From positions 124,001-188,000 of the forward strand of contig JABDKG010000040.1 of NCBI GenBank assembly GCA_013002305.1: a stretch of 64,000 nt of DNA, written 5' to 3'. Origin of the DNA: Hellea sp. GTDB lineage: Bacteria; Pseudomonadota; Alphaproteobacteria; Caulobacterales; Maricaulaceae. Position numbers and translations under genes: made by a program. Positions 50,233 through 58,564 of this stretch are shown here, in pieces (position 1 is the stretch's first letter; the number at the start of each line of letters is the position of its first letter). The notes below the pieces were generated by a model that saw nothing but the letters and a program-made list of their open reading frames with translations, made no database searches and was not told the DNA's origin.

Positions 50233-51498
50233 ATGGCGCGTATCGTCATGAAATTTGGGGGAACATCAGTTGCGGATCTTGAACGGATTCGCCGTGTTGC
50301 CGACCTCGTGGCAAGTGAAGCCGGCGACGGGAATGAAGTCGCTGTCGTTGTCTCGGCAATGAGCGGAGAAACCAATCGTCTTGTGGCGCTGGTCGATGCA
50401 CTTGATTCTGATAAAATTGCGGAACAAACTAACTCCCTTGGCGGCGCTATCGACGATGAATATGACGCTATTGTCGCTTCGGGCGAGCAGGTTACATCCG
50501 GTCTTCTGGCAATTGCACTTCGGCGCCGCGGCGTTAAAGCTAGGTCTTGGCTTGGGTGGCAAATTCCGCTGCGAACCGATAGCGCCCACAGTAAAGCCCG
50601 TATTGAATCGATCGACGATGATCAGCTCGACCCATCTATGAAGGCAGGTAATGTCGCGGTCGTCGCCGGGTTTCAGGGAATGGCGAAAAGCGGCCGTATC
50701 TCGACATTGGGCCGGGGTGGTTCCGATACGTCGGCCGTGGCATTAGCGGTGGCTCTGAAAGCAGATCGCTGCGATATTTATACGGATGTCGACGGCATTT
50801 ATACGACTGATCCGCGCATTGTCCCAGAAGCAAGACGGCTCAACCGTATTGCCTTTGAGGAGATGTTGGAACTGGCCTCATTGGGTGCCAAAGTTTTGCA
50901 GGTTCGCTCTGTGGAGCTTGCGATGAACAATAATTTGCCCATAAGGGTTCTAACCAGTTTTGTCGAAAACGGGGCCGCAAACCCCGGCACACTGGTTTGT
51001 CATGAGGATGAGAACATGGAAGAAAGAGTTGTTAGCGGCGTTGCCTATTCCCGCGATGAGGCGCAGATCACGATCTTGCGTTTGCAAGACAAGCCGGGGA
51101 TGGTAGCCAAAGTTTGCAAGGTCATGTCGGACGCCAATATAATTGTCGATATGATTGTTCAATCAATCTCGCGATCAGACAATGCCGCTAATTTGACATT
51201 TACGGTTGGAAAACGTGATCTTGATAAAGCACAAGCCGCGCTTGAAGCCGCTAAGACCGAAATTGGTTTTGAAGGCATTAAATCTGATCCCAACGTGACA
51301 AAAGTATCGATCGTGGGTATCGGCATGCGTTCCCATACGGGTGTTGCGCAGACCATGTTTGAAGCTTTGGCGGAGCGCAATATAAATGTAGAGGTAATCG
51401 CAACATCTGAGATCAAAATTTCAGTCTTGATCAATGCAGAATATACGGAGCTTGCCGTTCGGGCCTTGCATAGCGCTTTCAATCTCGCGGTAGCATAA
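50233..51498 (+). CDS. lysC: Aspartate kinase
   Basis: LysC phosphorylates aspartate, the first step to lysine, threonine and methionine. The 421-residue protein has KFGGTSVADLERI at the start, the catalytic region RGGSDTSAVALAVAL, and two C-terminal ACT domains (about 265-420) with the motif SRSDNAANLTFTV. The ACT domains imply feedback control by lysine and/or threonine. In Caulobacter the next gene is ptsP, whereas here three other genes intervene. No riboswitch is visible upstream. Confidence 0.94.
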   Translation: MARIVMKFGGTSVADLERIRRVADLVASEAGDGNEVAVVVSAMSGETNRLVALVDALDSDKIAEQTNSLGGAIDDEYDAIVASGEQVTSGLLAIALRRRGVKARSWLGWQIPLRTDSAHSKARIESIDDDQLDPSMKAGNVAVVAGFQGMAKSGRISTLGRGGSDTSAVALAVALKADRCDIYTDVDGIYTTDPRIVPEARRLNRIAFEEMLELASLGAKVLQVRSVELAMNNNLPIRVLTSFVENGAANPGTLVCHEDENMEERVVSGVAYSRDEAQITILRLQDKPGMVAKVCKVMSDANIIVDMIVQSISRSDNAANLTFTVGKRDLDKAQAALEAAKTEIGFEGIKSDPNVTKVSIVGIGMRSHTGVAQTMFEALAERNINVEVIATSEIKISVLINAEYTELAVRALHSAFNLAVA

Positions 51499-51513: not shown

Positions 51514-53610
51514 ATGAAAAAATTTGAAACACTATTCCTGCATGTGGGGCTAGAGAAAACGGGGACGACCTCGATACAGCGCGCACTTGACGTTCATCGC
51601 GATGAGTTTGAGAAGCTCGGTTATTATTACCCTCAAGCTTTCGCGGTTGGACGCAACACACTGCTTGCCGCTATGTTTCATCCTAATCCAAACAAGAAAC
51701 CTAACTTCAAATTAGCGATCGAAAAACGAGGCGGTACTCAAGAGGCTCATATCGCCCATATGCAGGCTCTGCTCGAATCCGAATTTCAACGAACTCAAGC
51801 CACAAATTTAGTGTTATCGAGCGAGTTCATTGCGGCGCAGTGCGATATTGGCGCGTTAAAATCTTTTTGCGATCAACTGGCTGAGAAAACCAAGGTGGTT
51901 CTATATCTGCGTGAACAGGGATCTTTAATTTTAAGTTTGCACTCAACGCGCGTCAAAGGCGGCGGAGCCGAATTTGGAACACTCGGACACATTGAGAATG
52001 AAGTGTTGCCTAGTTTCCTAGACTTCAAAGATATTATTTCGAGGCTCGAGAAACATTATGACAGGTCGGACATAGAGGTTCGTTTGTTTGACCGTCGCGA
52101 ACTGGTCAATGGAGATGCTATTGATGATTTTGTATCGGTCATTGGAGTGCAGGCGGAAAAGGGAGAGTTTTGGATTGATCGCCTTAACGAGTCATTGAGT
52201 CATACCGGGATCGAGCTTCTTAAAGAGGTCAATAATTATATGCCGCCAATCATTGAGAGCGAACGAAATCGCGGCCGGCTCTTACTAATTGATGATATGG
52301 TTGAACTCGATGGAAGCGGTGATTTCGGCAAATATACGCTTAGTGAAAATCAGGTCGCAACAATTGGTAAGCTAACCAAATCAACTAATGAATGGGTTCG
52401 AAAGAATTATTTTAAAGACCGACCAAATCTGTTTGATACTACCGGTAGAACTGGAAAAGGCGAAATAACACCCGAGCAGACGATTGATTATTCTGCGCGG
52501 CTTCTGGCCAGAGCTTATGAAAGGATTTGGGCCCTTGAGCGCGCTGCCAAGCGGCAAGGTTTAAAAATTGGCACAGATTTATTGCCGTTCAAATCTCAGT
52601 CCAAAGTCGTGACCCCCGCTCCACGTTCTGGTTCGCACACAACATCTCATAGCAATATAAATCGGGTCATCATTCACATTGGGCGGCATAAATCGGGCAC
52701 GTCCACAGTTCAGCATTTCTTCAAAGACAACCGCGAGTTTTATGACAAAGCCGGAATCCTTTTTCCGCTAAGCGGGACAAACAAAACGACGGTCGCTCAC
52801 CATGACATAGCCATGCTATGCAATCAATCGGTCCGAGAAAACAGCAAACTTCTAGAGCTCTCGCAAGGCGTTTCCGATGAAGTTAAAGATCACCATAATA
52901 CGATCCTGATTTCAAGTGAAGCCTTTCAGAATTTGACGAAGAAAAAACCGCTGCGCCAATTCCTGGCACCGTTCTCCAGCGCCGAGATTGAGGTTGTTTG
53001 TTATGTTCGCGAATTTGCTGATTATATGGTGTCGTCATTTCGTCAGGCCGTTCAAAATCAAATCCGTTTTCAGACATTTGGTGAGTTTTCACGCCATCAA
53101 TATCAGGTCAAATTGTTTCTGAGCCTATGGAGCGACATCGGAAATTTAAAGCTAAGGTGGTTCCATCCCCAGCTATTGAAAAATAGCGATGTCGTGGACG
53201 ATTTTCTGGAGCAGAACGGACTTCCAGACCCCAATCTACGCGAAAAACCCACGAAGAACCCTTCAATTGGCGGAAATTTATTGTGGCTGAAACTGGCGGC
53301 CAACAAGGCCTTAATTCCTTTCCCGGGCTATTCCGATATGGCCCGACTAGCTCAGCATCGAGTGGAATTTCGAGAGCCATTTTACATTCCGGAAAAACGG
53401 ATTGCGAGTCTGCGCGCAAGTACAAAGTATAACAAGATTTTCGAAAAAAAACTGGGACCAGTTCCTTATGAAACTTGGGAGCATAATGATAGTTTGCCGA
53501 ATGATTCGCGATTGGCCGAAGATTTAAAGTTTCTGGAAGACAGTTTTCCAAAGATAGATTTTAGATCTTTGCTGGCTTATCAAAAAGAAGGGCGCGGCTG
53601 GTTCGTTTAG
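51514..53610 (+). CDS. Tandem double-sulfotransferase-like protein
   Basis: A 698-residue protein made of two sulfotransferase-like modules. Module 1 (about 1-350) has FLHVGLEKTGTTSIQRAL, the 5'-phosphosulfate-binding loop of PAPS-dependent sulfotransferases, and VLYLREQGSLILSLHS with Arg and Ser spaced as in the 3'-phosphate loop. Module 2 (about 385-698) repeats both: IHIGRHKSGTSTVQHFF and VCYVREFADYMVSSFR. PAPS binding is well supported; the acceptor (glycan, lipid or small molecule) is unknown, and the two halves may be duplicated or act on different sites. It lies 15 bp after lysC with no obvious promoter between. Confidence 0.75.
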   Translation: MKKFETLFLHVGLEKTGTTSIQRALDVHRDEFEKLGYYYPQAFAVGRNTLLAAMFHPNPNKKPNFKLAIEKRGGTQEAHIAHMQALLESEFQRTQATNLVLSSEFIAAQCDIGALKSFCDQLAEKTKVVLYLREQGSLILSLHSTRVKGGGAEFGTLGHIENEVLPSFLDFKDIISRLEKHYDRSDIEVRLFDRRELVNGDAIDDFVSVIGVQAEKGEFWIDRLNESLSHTGIELLKEVNNYMPPIIESERNRGRLLLIDDMVELDGSGDFGKYTLSENQVATIGKLTKSTNEWVRKNYFKDRPNLFDTTGRTGKGEITPEQTIDYSARLLARAYERIWALERAAKRQGLKIGTDLLPFKSQSKVVTPAPRSGSHTTSHSNINRVIIHIGRHKSGTSTVQHFFKDNREFYDKAGILFPLSGTNKTTVAHHDIAMLCNQSVRENSKLLELSQGVSDEVKDHHNTILISSEAFQNLTKKKPLRQFLAPFSSAEIEVVCYVREFADYMVSSFRQAVQNQIRFQTFGEFSRHQYQVKLFLSLWSDIGNLKLRWFHPQLLKNSDVVDDFLEQNGLPDPNLREKPTKNPSIGGNLLWLKLAANKALIPFPGYSDMARLAQHRVEFREPFYIPEKRIASLRASTKYNKIFEKKLGPVPYETWEHNDSLPNDSRLAEDLKFLEDSFPKIDFRSLLAYQKEGRGWFV

Positions 53611-53650
53611 ATCGCTGGGAACTCCAATATTAAGGGTGCAATAATTTGTT

Positions 53651-54409
53651 ATGGGTGCAATAGAATTAACAAAACGCGATCAACTGCCGCATGCGAGTGA
53701 ATTTGAGGGTCGGACTTTCATTATCCACAGCATGCCGCGTGCGGCCAGCACATCTTTTCGGGTCTGGTTCAATCAACAAAACGATATTGTCAGCCACGGC
53801 GAGATATTCGGCCCCAATAAAGTGCTCTCTACCAGCCATAAGCAGAAAACAAAATTCTCCCCGATTCGGCGAAACCGAAATCCGAGAAAATTTTTAAAAA
53901 CCTATTTTTGTGATCATGATGTCCAATATGCGGGCTTCAAAGCATTAAGCTCACACCTTATTGACCGCCAAAACCTTCCAGCACTGCGCTGGTTTTTCGA
54001 CACCAAGCCAAAAGTCATTCAGCTTTATCGCAAGGACCTCGTGGCGCGGTACAAATCAACTCTTTATCACCGTTTACGACATGGAACTATCAGTCAGGAA
54101 CTAATCCTGAATTTTCGAACAGAGGACGTTGAGATCGATTGTTTGGTCACTCAGGAGCAATGGCGTATGGCGCATAAATACTGGATTGATGGACTAGATG
54201 TGGTCAGATTAAATATCAAGGAAATCGGCGCAGACACGCCCCCTCAAGTCGAAGCGTTGATGGGAATTAAGTTTGACGGCGAGCTTGGCCACAATAATGC
54301 CGAGGCGTCCAAGAAGGCCCAAACGGCAAATCACAAGGCGGTTAAACATTTGGAAAAAATTTGCGAAGCAGCTTCTCTGGATCAGTATAGAGATGTCAAT
54401 TTCGATTGA
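53651..54409 (+). CDS. Stf0-like sulfotransferase family protein
   Basis: A 252-residue protein. IIHSMPRAASTSFRVWFNQ has the P-R-x-x-S-T-S loop of Stf0-type trehalose/glycan sulfotransferases and DUF-like relatives. A FDTKPKVIQLYRKDLVARYKS segment, with Arg and Ser, matches the 3'-phosphate loop. The C-terminal part (about 160-240) is helical. Acceptor unknown. It lies 40 bp after the double sulfotransferase gene on the same strand, so both probably serve one pathway. Confidence 0.68.
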   Translation: MGAIELTKRDQLPHASEFEGRTFIIHSMPRAASTSFRVWFNQQNDIVSHGEIFGPNKVLSTSHKQKTKFSPIRRNRNPRKFLKTYFCDHDVQYAGFKALSSHLIDRQNLPALRWFFDTKPKVIQLYRKDLVARYKSTLYHRLRHGTISQELILNFRTEDVEIDCLVTQEQWRMAHKYWIDGLDVVRLNIKEIGADTPPQVEALMGIKFDGELGHNNAEASKKAQTANHKAVKHLEKICEAASLDQYRDVNFD

Positions 54410-54488
54410 TGACGTAGTTTGGACGATCTTGGCTGGACAAAGACAGGCCGGTTAGGGTAGTTGGCGCCAACTTATAAGGGATAGTAAC

Positions 54489-55436
54489 ATGGCTGAACAA
54501 AATATAGATAAGCCTGGACGTCAGCGGGCAATCGCGGCTCGCAAAGCAGCGCGCGAAGCGGCCCAAGGCGTTGGAGTAAAATCAAAAGCCAAAAATGTAA
54601 AAGGCAAAAATTCAAACAAGCCTGGTCAGCCAGCGGCCAACAAAGCCGGCAACAACCAAGTTAATCCGGTCACGCGTGCTAAAAAGCCAGCCCCGAAAAT
54701 ACAGCGCGATAAATTTGCGCTCAAACTCAATACCAGCCGACCCAAGGCGCATTTGCTTGAACAATTGCGTAAGTATGAACCTTGGGGCCACCGGATCGAT
54801 TTTTCTAATGGTGTATCAACCATGGACGTTGGCCACAGGACCCCATTTTCCGAAAACCCAACGCAAAAAGCCCACTTGGCATTTTCCAATATTCCGACCG
54901 GAGATTTGAGAGGAAAACGCATCCTCGATATTGGCTGCAATTCGGGTTATAGTTCGATTTACGCAGCGACACAGTTTGGCATGCGTCCCACCGGAATTGA
55001 CGTCAATCCCCGCCATATTGAAGTGTCGACTATGCTGTCGAATATGGCCGACATTAAGGCGGAATTTAAGCTTGGCGATGCTGAGACCTATGTTGAAAGT
55101 GAGCAGTTCGATGTGGTTTTCCATTTCGGGACGCTTTACCACCTCCCAAACCCGCTTTTATCGCTGGCTTCGACCTATGAGAATCTAGTCCCGGGCGGCT
55201 GGGTTGCGGTTGAAACCCAGATTTATGAAGGGGCGGATAAGAACCAATGTTACTTTATGCATATGCATAATAATGATCATACAAATTTCTGGGCCCTAAG
55301 TCGCCATGTGATGCAGAATTATATGGAATTTATTGGCTTTCAGAATTTTAAAGAAATTTTGCGCGTGACGCCCAAGGCAATGGAAGTCGATGGTATGCAC
55401 CGAACCATTTCCATTGCGCAAAAAGCGCCAAACTGA
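54489..55436 (+). CDS. Class I SAM methyltransferase with basic low-complexity N-terminus
   Basis: A 315-residue protein. The methyltransferase motif I is RILDIGCNSGYSSIYAA, motif II region GMRPTGIDVNPRHIE, and FDVVFHFGTLYHLPNPL is motif IV, with YHL typical of small-molecule/lipid or CmoB-type enzymes. The first 75 residues are rich in Lys, Ala, Asn and Pro (AARKAAREAAQG, KSKAKNVKGK) and lack a fold, as if to bind nucleic acid or anionic polymer. It forms a cassette with the two sulfotransferase-like genes. Its substrate is unknown. Confidence 0.75.
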   Translation: MAEQNIDKPGRQRAIAARKAAREAAQGVGVKSKAKNVKGKNSNKPGQPAANKAGNNQVNPVTRAKKPAPKIQRDKFALKLNTSRPKAHLLEQLRKYEPWGHRIDFSNGVSTMDVGHRTPFSENPTQKAHLAFSNIPTGDLRGKRILDIGCNSGYSSIYAATQFGMRPTGIDVNPRHIEVSTMLSNMADIKAEFKLGDAETYVESEQFDVVFHFGTLYHLPNPLLSLASTYENLVPGGWVAVETQIYEGADKNQCYFMHMHNNDHTNFWALSRHVMQNYMEFIGFQNFKEILRVTPKAMEVDGMHRTISIAQKAPN

Positions 55437-55499
55437 TCTCGTAATAATTCTTAAATTTCTGCCCTAGTCGCACCGCTATCAGCTGGTGTAGGATACATC

Positions 55500-57785
55500 A
55501 TGAGCCAGGATCCCAATATCGTGACCCGGCCGCCAAGATTAATGCGGGCAATTCGCAACGCAATGGCGGGGACCGAGTCGGTTCAGGAGCGTCTTGACCA
55601 CTTTGTCGAGGCTATCACTGAAGCGATGCAGGTGGCCGTGGCGTCAATTTACTTGCGACGTCCGAGCCGCGAACTTGAATTATCGGCGACGCGTGGACTA
55701 AAAAAATCAGCTGTTCACAAAACATTGATGCAGCCTGGAGAGGGTTTGGTTGGTCATGTTGCCAAAACGGCTCGCCCGCTAAACCTGGATGATGCACCGT
55801 CCCATCCTTTATTCGCATATCGGCCCGAAACCGGTGAAGATAAATATTTGTCCTTTTTAGGCGTGCCGATTTTACGCGGCGGACGCACCCTCGGCGTGCT
55901 GGTTGTTCAAAGTGAAGACCGGCGAACCTTCAACGAAGAAGAGGTTGAAGACCTTTTGACGGTTGCAATGGTTTTAGCAGAAATTCTCATTGATGATGAG
56001 CGTATTGGTGGCAAAAAAGCGGCGCTAAAAGGTATCACTTTAGCCCCGACCAAACCCGAAACGTTTTCCGGCAAGGCTTTTGCCGAAGGCCTGACGCAGG
56101 GCGTTGCCCATTTACATGTCCCGCCGGTTCCACCGTCAAACATGTTGTCTGAGAACATTGCCGCGGAAGAAATCCGGCTTGAAGAAGGTGTCGCCAAGTT
56201 AAGAGCCTCTGTTGATGCGATGGTTAGCGGCGAGGCGGCCAGTCTTTCAAGGGCGTCGAAAGAAATTTACGAAACTTACCGTATGTTCGCCTATGATCGA
56301 AAATGGGTGAAGCGATTGCGCGAAGCTGTTCATTCGGGGTTAACTGCCGAAGCGGCAGTTGAGCGCGTTCGTAATGAGCACCGCGCCCGGTTGATGAAAT
56401 CGCCCGATCCCTATATGCGCGCCCGGCTGCACGATCTTGAAGATCTCGCCAATCGGCTCCTTCGCGCCCTATCCGGGGAACTTACCAGCCCCGGGAAAAA
56501 AGAATTACCGGACAATGCAATTATCTTCGCCCGAGATCTCGGGCCGACTGAACTTCTGGACTATGATCGGGAAAAGCTCGCAGGTATCGTTTTAGAAGAG
56601 GGCTCTCTAAGTAGCCACACATCCATCATATGCCGGGCTCTCGGCGTCCCGTTGATTGGCCGGGTTGAAGGTGTACTGGACCGGCTAGAGGTCGGAGATC
56701 AGGTTTTACTGGATGCCGAACTGGGTGAAGTCCATGTCCGGCCGGTGGAAAGCCGTATTGACGGATTTAAGCTGCGGGTCAATATACGAGGCGAAGTTAC
56801 AAAAGCCTATGAGGCGGTCAAACTCCAGCCGGCGATTACCAAAGACGGACGACATGTTTCGCTGCAATTAAATGCAGGTCTTCTGGTTGATCTTCCGCAG
56901 CTCGACTCGGCGGGTGCAGACGGAATTGGTTTGTTTCGGACAGAATTTCAATTCATGGTATCCGAGTTTATGCCGAAGCTCAAAGAACAAACCGATCTTT
57001 ATCTTCAGGCCCTAGAAGCGGCGGCGCATCGACCCGTAACGTTTCGGACCCTTGATCTCGGCGGCGACAAAATTTTACCTTATATGGACCCTGTGCCTGA
57101 AGAAAATCCGGCTATTGGCTGGCGCGCCATCCGGATCGGGCTCGACCGGCCCGCACTGCTTCGCTATCAGTGCCGTGCCCTGATCGTCGCAGCAGCAGGC
57201 CGTCATTTACGGGTCATGTTTCCGATGGTTACGACCGTAGATGAATTTATCGAAGCTCGCGCTTTGTTCGATGTCGAGGTTAAACGGGCCTCAAGTCTTG
57301 GCAAATCATTACCCAATAAAATTGAAGTTGGCGTAATGCTCGAAACACCGTCGCTGGCCTGGTCGGTCCGGGCCATTTGCGATCACGCGGATTTTGTATC
57401 TGTCGGCGCAAATGATTTGATGCAATTCTTCTTTGCATCTGATCGCGACAATGTTCGGGTCGCCGATCGGTATGATCCGCTGCACCCGGCCGCTCTTTCT
57501 ATATTACGGTTTATTGCTGATGGATGCCGCAAGGCGGGCGTTCCGATCTCCCTTTGCGGCGAGATTGCCGGGCGTCCGATTGAAGCCATTACGTTAATAG
57601 CGCTCGGATATGAGACGCTTTCTATGCCGGTAACCGGTATTGGTCCTGTCAAAGCGGCAATCCTGACGCTAGATGCCGCCAAACTACGAGAAGTGATCAC
57701 TCCGCTGATCAATGTCGATTCCCGTCTGTCGACCATTCGCGACCATGTTCGCCAGTTCTGCCTGGAAGAAGGCATACCGGCTTAA
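55500..57785 (+). CDS. ptsP: Phosphoenolpyruvate-protein phosphotransferase PtsP (nitrogen PTS)
   Basis: PtsP starts the nitrogen-type phosphotransfer chain by passing phosphate from PEP to NPr. The 761-residue protein has an N-terminal GAF domain (about 15-160), then the EI domains: the linking helix region, the phospho-His motif EEGSLSSHTSIICRALGVP, and the C-terminal PEP-binding barrel with GLFRTEFQFM, RTLDLGGDKILPYM and VSVGANDLMQFFFASDRDN. All key segments are present. The GAF domain suggests control by glutamine/2-oxoglutarate. In other alphaproteobacteria it directly follows lysC. Confidence 0.94.
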   Translation: MSQDPNIVTRPPRLMRAIRNAMAGTESVQERLDHFVEAITEAMQVAVASIYLRRPSRELELSATRGLKKSAVHKTLMQPGEGLVGHVAKTARPLNLDDAPSHPLFAYRPETGEDKYLSFLGVPILRGGRTLGVLVVQSEDRRTFNEEEVEDLLTVAMVLAEILIDDERIGGKKAALKGITLAPTKPETFSGKAFAEGLTQGVAHLHVPPVPPSNMLSENIAAEEIRLEEGVAKLRASVDAMVSGEAASLSRASKEIYETYRMFAYDRKWVKRLREAVHSGLTAEAAVERVRNEHRARLMKSPDPYMRARLHDLEDLANRLLRALSGELTSPGKKELPDNAIIFARDLGPTELLDYDREKLAGIVLEEGSLSSHTSIICRALGVPLIGRVEGVLDRLEVGDQVLLDAELGEVHVRPVESRIDGFKLRVNIRGEVTKAYEAVKLQPAITKDGRHVSLQLNAGLLVDLPQLDSAGADGIGLFRTEFQFMVSEFMPKLKEQTDLYLQALEAAAHRPVTFRTLDLGGDKILPYMDPVPEENPAIGWRAIRIGLDRPALLRYQCRALIVAAAGRHLRVMFPMVTTVDEFIEARALFDVEVKRASSLGKSLPNKIEVGVMLETPSLAWSVRAICDHADFVSVGANDLMQFFFASDRDNVRVADRYDPLHPAALSILRFIADGCRKAGVPISLCGEIAGRPIEAITLIALGYETLSMPVTGIGPVKAAILTLDAAKLREVITPLINVDSRLSTIRDHVRQFCLEEGIPA

Positions 57786-58480: not shown

Positions 58481-58564
58481 TGGTACGGGTGGTCGGAATC
58501 GAACCGACACTCCAAAGGAACGGGATTTTGAATCCCGCGCGTCTACCAATTCCGCCACACCCGC
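58481..58564 (-). tRNA. tRNA-Leu (CAA anticodon)
   Basis: Minus strand, 84 nt, with 5' GCGGGTG pairing with 3' CACCCGT (one G-U at position 1-72), then A73 and an encoded CCA end. The anticodon loop TTCAAAA, closed by CGGGA/TCCCG, gives CAA, reading UUG leucine codons. The long variable arm (TTCCTTTGGAGT) and GGTTCGATTCC T-arm fit a class II tRNA. Transcription runs toward urcA, convergent with it. Confidence 0.95.

Follow-up and report, generated by a model that had tools for sequence, protein, structure and literature searches.

A swapping sulfotransferase and methyltransferase cassette between lysC and ptsP in Hellea, a probable decoration locus for a sulfated surface glycan

What are genes predicted to transfer sulfate and methyl groups doing between lysC and ptsP? 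The question is raised by a stretch of 64,000 nucleotides from the genome of Hellea sp. (contig JABDKG010000040.1, positions 124,001 to 188,000; hereafter the window), where three plus-strand open reading frames (ORFs) fill about 4 kb between these two genes. An earlier note on this DNA described three same-direction genes carrying loop motifs for 3′-phosphoadenosine 5′-phosphosulfate (PAPS) and S-adenosylmethionine (SAM). The ORF list, the Pfam domains of the flanking genes and the motifs kept in homologues confirm the genes and their place. The note's picture of a single insertion of a fixed trio gives way to another, that of a site occupied, empty or scarred in different relatives, whose genes diverge and swap. 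The cassette is probably an outlying, turning-over decoration locus for a sulfated surface glycan, and the product of an exporter module on another contig of the genome (C96) is the best candidate for its acceptor.

An occupied, empty or scarred site

The lysC-ptsP junction is normally tight. Among 99 genomes sampled from the family, lysC was found in 95, ptsP in 95 and both in 94; in 64 of these 94 the two genes lie on the same strand, 20-166 bp apart (median 60). They are separated by 400-8000 bp in five genomes: the window's own (G000, 4004 bp), G006 (2666), G010 (1352), G004 (715) and G072 (401). The remaining genomes comprise four with the genes far apart on one contig and 21 with them on different contigs or strands. 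The insert in G010, which belongs to another genus, is a different one, with repeat-like ORFs on the opposite strand (L062 3365-4552).

The genus was sampled by the window's genome and nine others. Nine of the ten are testable; G007 shows neither lysC nor ptsP at the thresholds used. The site is occupied in five (G000, G001, G004, G006 and G008) and empty in four (G002, G003, G005 and G009), with 78-129 bp between the matched ranges. A cassette common to all members of the genus is thereby rejected. The insertion at a usually closed junction that the note had proposed stands, and the finding that it named as fatal to its proposal, the same trio in the same place in all relatives, was not made.

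What the occupied sites hold varies. The first gene of the cassette, ORF1, fuses two sulfotransferase-like domains whose halves, here called N and C, are separate genes in relatives. The window's site contains the fused N and C, ORF2 and ORF3. N and C are present in G006; N, C and ORF2 on contig C65 of G004; an N tail and C on contig C25 of G008; and an N gene with its tail in G001, where the contig ends soon after. Scars are found as well. On contig C14 of G004 the first 78 codons of N are followed by a fragment similar to the last part of an SGNH acyltransferase domain (20.9 of 27 bits), and on contig C189 of G008 the first dozen N codons precede another C gene. G004 is a mixed bin, in which two ptsP genes share 74% identity in DNA, and G008 has ptsP pieces on two contigs. 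Across 61 genomes searched, the window's included, the ORF1 family occurs in 13, ORF2 in two and a strong ORF3 match in two; some ORF3 match is present in 57, reflecting the general methyltransferase fold. The second strong ORF3 match (46%) is in G007 (L058 6385-8102), where it adjoins an Acyl_transf_3 gene at the end of a pyruvate-dehydrogenase-type contig.

The site genes are far more diverged than their flanks. Compared with the other eight testable congeners, the window's lysC is 78-87% and its ptsP 75-87% identical, whereas the site genes are 37-48% identical between congeners and partial pieces 29-57%. In a tree of C proteins (28 rows), the site C genes and a second C gene on contig C30 of the window's own genome form one clade (100/96), which groups with seven Rhodobacterales rows (98/95). 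The closest partner of the C30 copy is the site copy of G008 (98/96), not the window's own C, and with the C30 copy nested among them the site C genes by themselves do not form a clade. Just upstream of this copy lies a broken lysC fragment (L063 7650-8101; codons 134-284). It is interrupted by one stop codon and one frame change and shares about 66-69% identity with the LysC protein of the window. The fragment is read as a displaced, decayed piece of what would have been a lysC-plus-cassette region. Its donor is not assignable, ten LysC proteins matching its two pieces at 50-74%.

In a tree of lysC and ptsP, the empty G002 and the occupied G006 are sisters (100/100). They share only 81% (lysC) and 79% (ptsP) identity in DNA, so the switch between occupied and empty need not be recent. 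The tree does not settle the forks among G000, G001, G008 and G009, and on it the occupied genomes are no more clustered than in many shuffles (82 of 500 as low).

Tandem sulfotransferase domains and their companions

The earlier note read the motifs rightly; a correction to it is that ORF1 has two sulfotransferase-like domains. The N gene (548 aa) of G006 ends 2 bp before the C gene (318 aa), and on contig C65 of G004 a partial N gene shares one base with the C gene. Profile comparison shows the N and C families to be homologous (hhalign 99.9%, E 5.3e-34, 271 columns). Both families keep the K[TS]GT loop and the SSE, R-E and N-x-S motifs, and in the hhalign alignment the KTGTT and LREQ...S of the N half fall on the loop and 3′-phosphate-binding (PB) motifs of the C half. 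Features common to sulfotransferases are a Lys or Arg with Gly in the 5′-phosphosulfate-binding (PSB) loop, and a PB Ser (PMC11625862); the PSB Lys and Gly and the PB Ser are present in both halves.

Pfam places ORF1 just outside its families, with Sulfotransfer_1 at 20.9 of 22 bits (residues 388-541) and Sulfotransfer_3 at 13.6 of 27, both below cut-off. A review warns that the Pfam sulfotransferase seeds miss bacterial members (PMC11625862). Searches of PDB sequences with ORF1 and ORF2 returned no sulfotransferase at E 1. A structure model of the C half, built from 23 sequences, is confident (pLDDT 93.5, pTM 0.90). When it was compared by VIA-align with 999 of the first 1000 chains listed by Foldseek, heparan sulfate N-sulfotransferase (NDST1) with PAPS came first (Z 12.3, rmsd 3.7, 222 aligned, 12% identity). 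The 3-O-sulfotransferases (Z 11.3-11.9) and a bacterial sulfotransferase (3rnl, Z 11.4) came next, and tyrosylprotein sulfotransferases (TPSTs; 8.3), SULTs (at most 8.2) and adenylate kinase (7.8) lay farther off. In the model, HKSGT is placed between a strand (9-15) and a helix (21-30), with K18 and G20 invariant in the 23 rows; a second strand (116-123) leads through R124 into a helix (126-140) whose S132 is kept in at least 90% of them. As modelled, the C half would thus have the PSB loop, the PB strand-turn-helix and the fold of the sulfotransferase superfamily while scoring below the Pfam cut-off. A P-loop outside the fold of PAPS enzymes, which the note had said would count against it, is not what the model predicts. 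NDST1 holds PAP via K614-T618, among others (PMC10864358), and the K[TS]GT loop should correspond to this loop.

The N half, known from sequence comparison alone, probably belongs to the same superfamily by its homology to the C half and its loop and PB motifs. The N proteins of G006, G008 and G001 (the last of 682 aa) finish with a long tail, repetitive and helical in appearance, whose only matches are to scattered coiled-coil-type models and almost all fall under the cut-off. This tail is absent from the window's ORF1, in which the halves are fused. N relatives with such tails are at L051 441-2489, L057 2051-3697 and L060 2-781.

ORF2 has no Pfam match at E 1, while its homologue in Seohaeicola exceeds the Sulfotransfer_3 cut-off (28.9 of 27 bits). 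An Arg is present in the PSB-like loop of ORF2 and of both its homologues, as it is in the PSB loops of Stf0 and NodH (PMC11625862). By VIA-align of a poor model, Stf0 ranks first and 48 of the 50 listed rows are sulfotransferases, with Z at most 8.6, a level that is possibly non-specific. ORF2 is probably a Stf0/NodH-like sulfotransferase, on weaker evidence than ORF1.

ORF3 is above the Pfam cut-offs for Methyltransf_9 (64.6 of 23.8 bits), _23, _31, _11, _25 and _12, and by motif I and these family profiles it is a predicted class I SAM methyltransferase. A role as CmoB was considered and rejected (TIGR00452 65.8 of 275 bits, NF011650 65.2 of 209). Its N-terminus (window 54489-54730) is a stretch of about 80 residues rich in Lys, Ala, Asn and Gly and mostly absent from three aligned homologues.

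The three genes follow one another closely (Table 1), with gaps of 15 bp between lysC and ORF1, 40 between ORF1 and ORF2, 79 between ORF2 and ORF3 and 63 between ORF3 and ptsP. The PAPS-loop-like motifs are EKTGTTSIQ (residue 14) and HKSGTSTVQ (residue 392) in ORF1 and PRAASTSF (residue 29) in ORF2, and the SAM motif of ORF3 is LDIGCNSGYSS (residue 146). Conservation of these motifs among the homologues of each protein shows that they did not arise by chance alone. G+C content is 45% in ORF1, 46% in ORF2 and 48% in ORF3, against 51% in lysC and 53% in ptsP. A sequence scan gave three promoter-like sites where 6.3 were expected and nine terminator-like sites where 5.5 were (sd 2.8), both near chance. 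Ahead of ptsP, an alignment of ten stretches has three invariant columns and a mean column identity of 38%; this weak conservation at most hints that insertions spare the region where ptsP starts. The note had named ubiG, lysC, ptsP and prfA as near neighbours, an order that is seen as far as ptsP; no frame of the window contains GGQ[HSGN]V, the hallmark pattern of PrfA. A classical mobile genomic island was also considered and rejected: the ORF list and Pfam reveal no integrase or transposase ORF within the cassette, no repeat pair of at least 14 bases joins its two borders, and the sole tRNA gene of the window, Leu (caa) at 58481-58564, lies about 3 kb past the cassette on the far side of ptsP.

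Table 1. Features of the lysC-ptsP region, in window coordinates
Feature	Position	Strand	Size or basis
lysC, left flank	50233-51498	+	Pfam AA_kinase and ACT domains
ORF1	51514-53610	+	698 aa
ORF1 N half, sulfotransferase-like domain (residues 1-345)	51514-52548	+	homology to C half; separate gene in G006 and on G004 C65
ORF1 C half, predicted sulfotransferase domain (residues 376-698)	52639-53610	+	model; fold matches; Pfam near cut-off
ORF2, probable Stf0/NodH-like sulfotransferase	53651-54409	+	252 aa; Seohaeicola homologue, weak model, loop Arg
ORF3, predicted class I SAM methyltransferase	54489-55436	+	315 aa; Pfam Methyltransf profiles
Spacer before ptsP	55437-55499	+	weakly conserved with occupied and empty sites alike
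ptsP, right flank	55500-57785	+	Pfam GAF and PEP-utilisers

A candidate acceptor and the competing explanations

The company that these genes keep elsewhere points towards glycans. One genome per species was scanned with two short peptide patterns, which gave 33 loci; the ORF layout was drawn up for 13 of them, and chosen genes of eight were compared with Pfam. The full trio occurs at none of the 33 by blastp of their ORFs, within the flanks available, so the co-occurrence that the note had suggested looking for is confined to pairs. In Seohaeicola a C gene is followed by the ORF2 homologue (29%), with three more ORF1-like genes nearby, and in two Rhodovulum species an ORF3 homologue (32%) directly precedes a C gene; R. 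kholense has a second C gene, a glycosyltransferase and a carbamoyltransferase close by. After the C gene of Shimia come a Core-2/I-branching enzyme and a Sulfotransfer_2 gene, and the C gene of Psychrobacter lies behind a rhamnan-synthesis/glycosyltransferase protein. Single genes at two further loci (L082 and L083) had no Pfam match.

Plasmids carry relatives as well. Against 72,556 plasmid records, tblastn with ORF2 found no match, and ORF1 matched 58 records, all below 60% identity and none with one place covering 80%. Among the best 20 of these 58, which were inspected, a C homologue (36%) on Marinibacterium anthonyi plasmid pLA6_007 immediately follows a sulfotransferase gene in a cluster that also has kpsT, kpsM and kfoC, and on Phaeobacter inhibens plasmid pPGA1_65 a region like the N half of ORF1 (27%, E 2e-6) belongs to a glycosyltransferase encoded in an exopolysaccharide-type cluster. 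Viral contigs gave 12 pattern matches, none an ORF1 relative. As judged by sequence, the pairs of C with ORF2 and of ORF3 with C recur in Rhodobacterales, and C homologues occur in glycan loci. Two TPR-Sulfotransfer_3 fusion genes follow a TonB-dependent receptor gene on contig C70 of the window's genome (L066 4137-10236).

The ORF list and Pfam agree with the note that the cassette contains no transport or polysaccharide genes. Its suggestion that the acceptor comes from elsewhere is supported by a candidate locus on contig C96 (L105 285-6166), which comprises an ABC transporter pair (the permease named via its G001 homologue), an 820-aa GT2+GT1 protein and a Sulfotransfer_2 gene. After this module come a conserved 308-aa gene, a CysD-like gene and CysN-CysC. 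A further 4.5 to 14 kb on are genes reading as rmlA, rmlC, rmlB and rmlD, a 907-aa glycosyltransferase and two more sulfotransferases. The 820-aa protein is found at 71-80% identity in G001, G006 and G007, and G008 has a 55% fragment of it where a contig ends; at E 1e-20 it was not found in G002, G003, G004 or G009, and G005 has only a 27% partial match. It starts, like the N relatives end, with a charged, helical-looking stretch; contact between this stretch and the N tails is a speculative possibility.

The module occupies a second variable site, unlinked to the cassette, between an ArsC-like gene and the 308-aa gene (L105, L118, L120, L131, L132, L133). It sits between these genes in G000, G001 and G006, whereas in G009 (100% complete) they are 125 bp apart, an empty second site. 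G003 has a different ABC exporter beside the 308-aa gene, and G004 has MBOAT and Sulfotransfer_1 genes upstream of it. In G002 and G005 no 308-aa gene was found, so that no verdict on the second site is possible for these two. With G007 left out (its lysC-ptsP site being not scorable), cassette and module agree in four of four clear cassette genomes and in four of four empty ones (one-sided Fisher 0.014, kinship ignored). Other genes are poorer guides. The 907-aa glycosyltransferase does not track the cassette, occurring in G000 and G007 only of 21 genomes. Sulfotransfer_2 genes are present in each of the five occupied genomes, yet G005, which is empty, has them too. The rhamnose genes are no marker, as G009 has rml genes without the module. 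On these small numbers the module is the best candidate source of the acceptor.

Under the surface-glycan reading, the cassette, presumably transcribed, would encode cytoplasmic tailoring enzymes. The two ORF1 domains and ORF2 would be three PAPS-dependent sulfotransferase domains, each probably sulfating a different sugar position, and ORF3 would O-methylate the same or a neighbouring sugar with SAM. PAPS would be supplied by the genome's CysD and CysN-CysC, and the glycan would most likely be built and exported by the C96 module with its ABC transporter, glycosyltransferase and sulfotransferase. The interval from the lysC stop codon to the short stretch ahead of ptsP seems to tolerate gain, loss and swapping of genes, which would make the cassette a variable decoration locus. 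A bolder and tentative extension is a serotype-like system with two sites in the genus, in which the exporter module between the ArsC-like and 308-aa genes makes the chain and the separate, fast-swapping lysC-ptsP cassette sets its sulfate, methyl and perhaps acyl pattern (the last suggested by the SGNH-like remnant in the G004 scar), the two sites being gained and lost together.

Several observations weigh against the surface-glycan reading. For the C half, Foldseek alone gives no match under E 0.001, the best being human TPST2 at 1.1e-3. The ORF2 model is poor (pLDDT 60, built from three sequences), its best Foldseek match, at 0.029, is not significant, and ORF2 does not match the C-half profile. 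The C homologue of Marimonas adjoins DNA polymerase I. The co-variation of cassette and module comes from eight draft genomes, kinship ignored, and G004, a mixed bin with another sulfotransferase module, has cassette genes without the 820-aa glycosyltransferase; counting it as an exception raises the Fisher value to 0.040 (kinship again ignored). Nor does PAPS supply follow the cassette. Adenosine 5′-phosphosulfate (APS) kinase was not found in G004, G006 and G008 (75-100% complete; G004 100%) nor in G002, and it is present in three of the four empty-site genomes. The CysD and CysN-CysC genes near the module occur also in the empty-site G009 and G003; they are therefore genes of general use and do not point to a dedicated supply. 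Taken as a correlate of the cassette, PAPS supply speaks against the reading. A second CysN-CysC and CysD-like pair lies on the 6-kb contig C101 of the window's genome (L106 44-2859), as a real copy or on a misbinned contig.

The acceptor could instead be a lipid, a lipo-oligosaccharide or a small secreted molecule, sulfated and methylated as by Stf0 and NodH, with the agreement between cassette and exporter owed to coincidence or shared ecology. Such a substrate would suit the loop Arg of ORF2 and the first rank of Stf0, a trehalose sulfotransferase, against its weak model (Z 8.6), and the carbamoyltransferase at the Rhodovulum locus could belong to a small-molecule pathway. However, the C half is nearest to polysaccharide sulfotransferases, C homologues lie in capsule or glycosyltransferase loci, and the cassette tracks a module for an ABC-exported glycan. 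We consider this reading rather unlikely. Still less is to be said for sulfation of a protein, on tyrosine or on a glycoprotein such as flagellin or a surface layer. TPSTs are the first Foldseek match of the C half and its second fold group by VIA-align, yet a Z gap of about 4 separates them from the glycan sulfotransferases, and no flagellar or surface-protein gene was noticed beside C homologues among the Pfam-checked neighbours at eight of the 33 loci.

It is similarly improbable that the cassette consists of functionless remnants of transferred DNA decaying at a tolerant site. Such decay would account for the broken copies at the scarred sites (G004 C14, G008 C189) and next to the lysC pseudogene of contig C30, and the lower G+C content of the cassette accords with a foreign origin. 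Against this, all three frames of the window's cassette are open with the family's key residues intact. Open frames with these residues preserved are also seen in the site C genes of G004 and G006, which share 44-46% identity with that of the window.

Relation to known sulfation systems

Animals, algae and cyanobacteria are familiar sources of sulfated polysaccharides, whereas reports from other bacteria are few. A 2021 paper states that no bacterial sulfated polysaccharide had been reported outside cyanobacteria (PMC8205485), and a 2024 review counts six bacterial genera that have them (PMC11625862). Marine bacterial sulfated polysaccharides with such genes have been described in Cobetia (PMC11766843) and Pontiella (PMC7356697), so the kind is known. 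What appears new is the cassette itself, outlying and swapping, together with the fused pair of sulfotransferase domains; the claim that both are new is based solely on literature searches that found no paper combining lysC, ptsP and sulfotransferase, none on Hellea and sulfotransferase, and the phrase "two sulfotransferase domains" in none among the matches listed.

If the reading is true, marine Caulobacterales-type bacteria vary the sulfation of a surface glycan by means of a swappable cassette, and this variation could influence attack by phages, the formation of biofilms and settlement on algae. Sulfotransferases missed or nearly missed by Pfam would then be new bacterial relatives of the heparan sulfotransferases, and the agreement between two unlinked sites names the glycan to look for.

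The closest solved folds to the C half, with 209-222 residues aligned, are those of NDST1 and the 3-O-sulfotransferases. The K-x-G-T loop of the C half would lie where NDST1 holds PAP (PMC10864358). In contrast to these enzymes, with which it shares 11-13% sequence identity, the C half is bacterial, shows no sign of a heparan substrate and is fused to a second domain. ORF2 resembles the Stf0/NodH-type bacterial glycolipid sulfotransferases in the Arg of its PSB-like loop and its VIA-align rank, and departs from them in its low-confidence model and in having no significant Foldseek match and no Pfam match.

As whole systems, the nearest parallels are clusters for sulfated glycans. In Cobetia marina KMM 1449 an ABC exporter, glycosyltransferases, rhamnose and PAPS genes and sulfotransferases serve one sulfated capsule from a single region of about 94 kb (PMC11766843), whereas here some decoration genes would sit apart, between lysC and ptsP, and vary between relatives. 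The xss cluster of Synechocystis, which makes synechan, combines two sulfotransferases with glycosyltransferases (PMC8205485), and the sulfated glycan cluster of Pontiella places a sulfotransferase beside a methyltransferase (PMC7356697). Unlike the lysC-ptsP cassette, both have their decoration genes inside the glycan cluster. The capsule cluster of pLA6_007 likewise sets a C homologue behind a sulfotransferase; it differs from the cassette in being plasmid-borne and in holding this gene within the capsule cluster itself.

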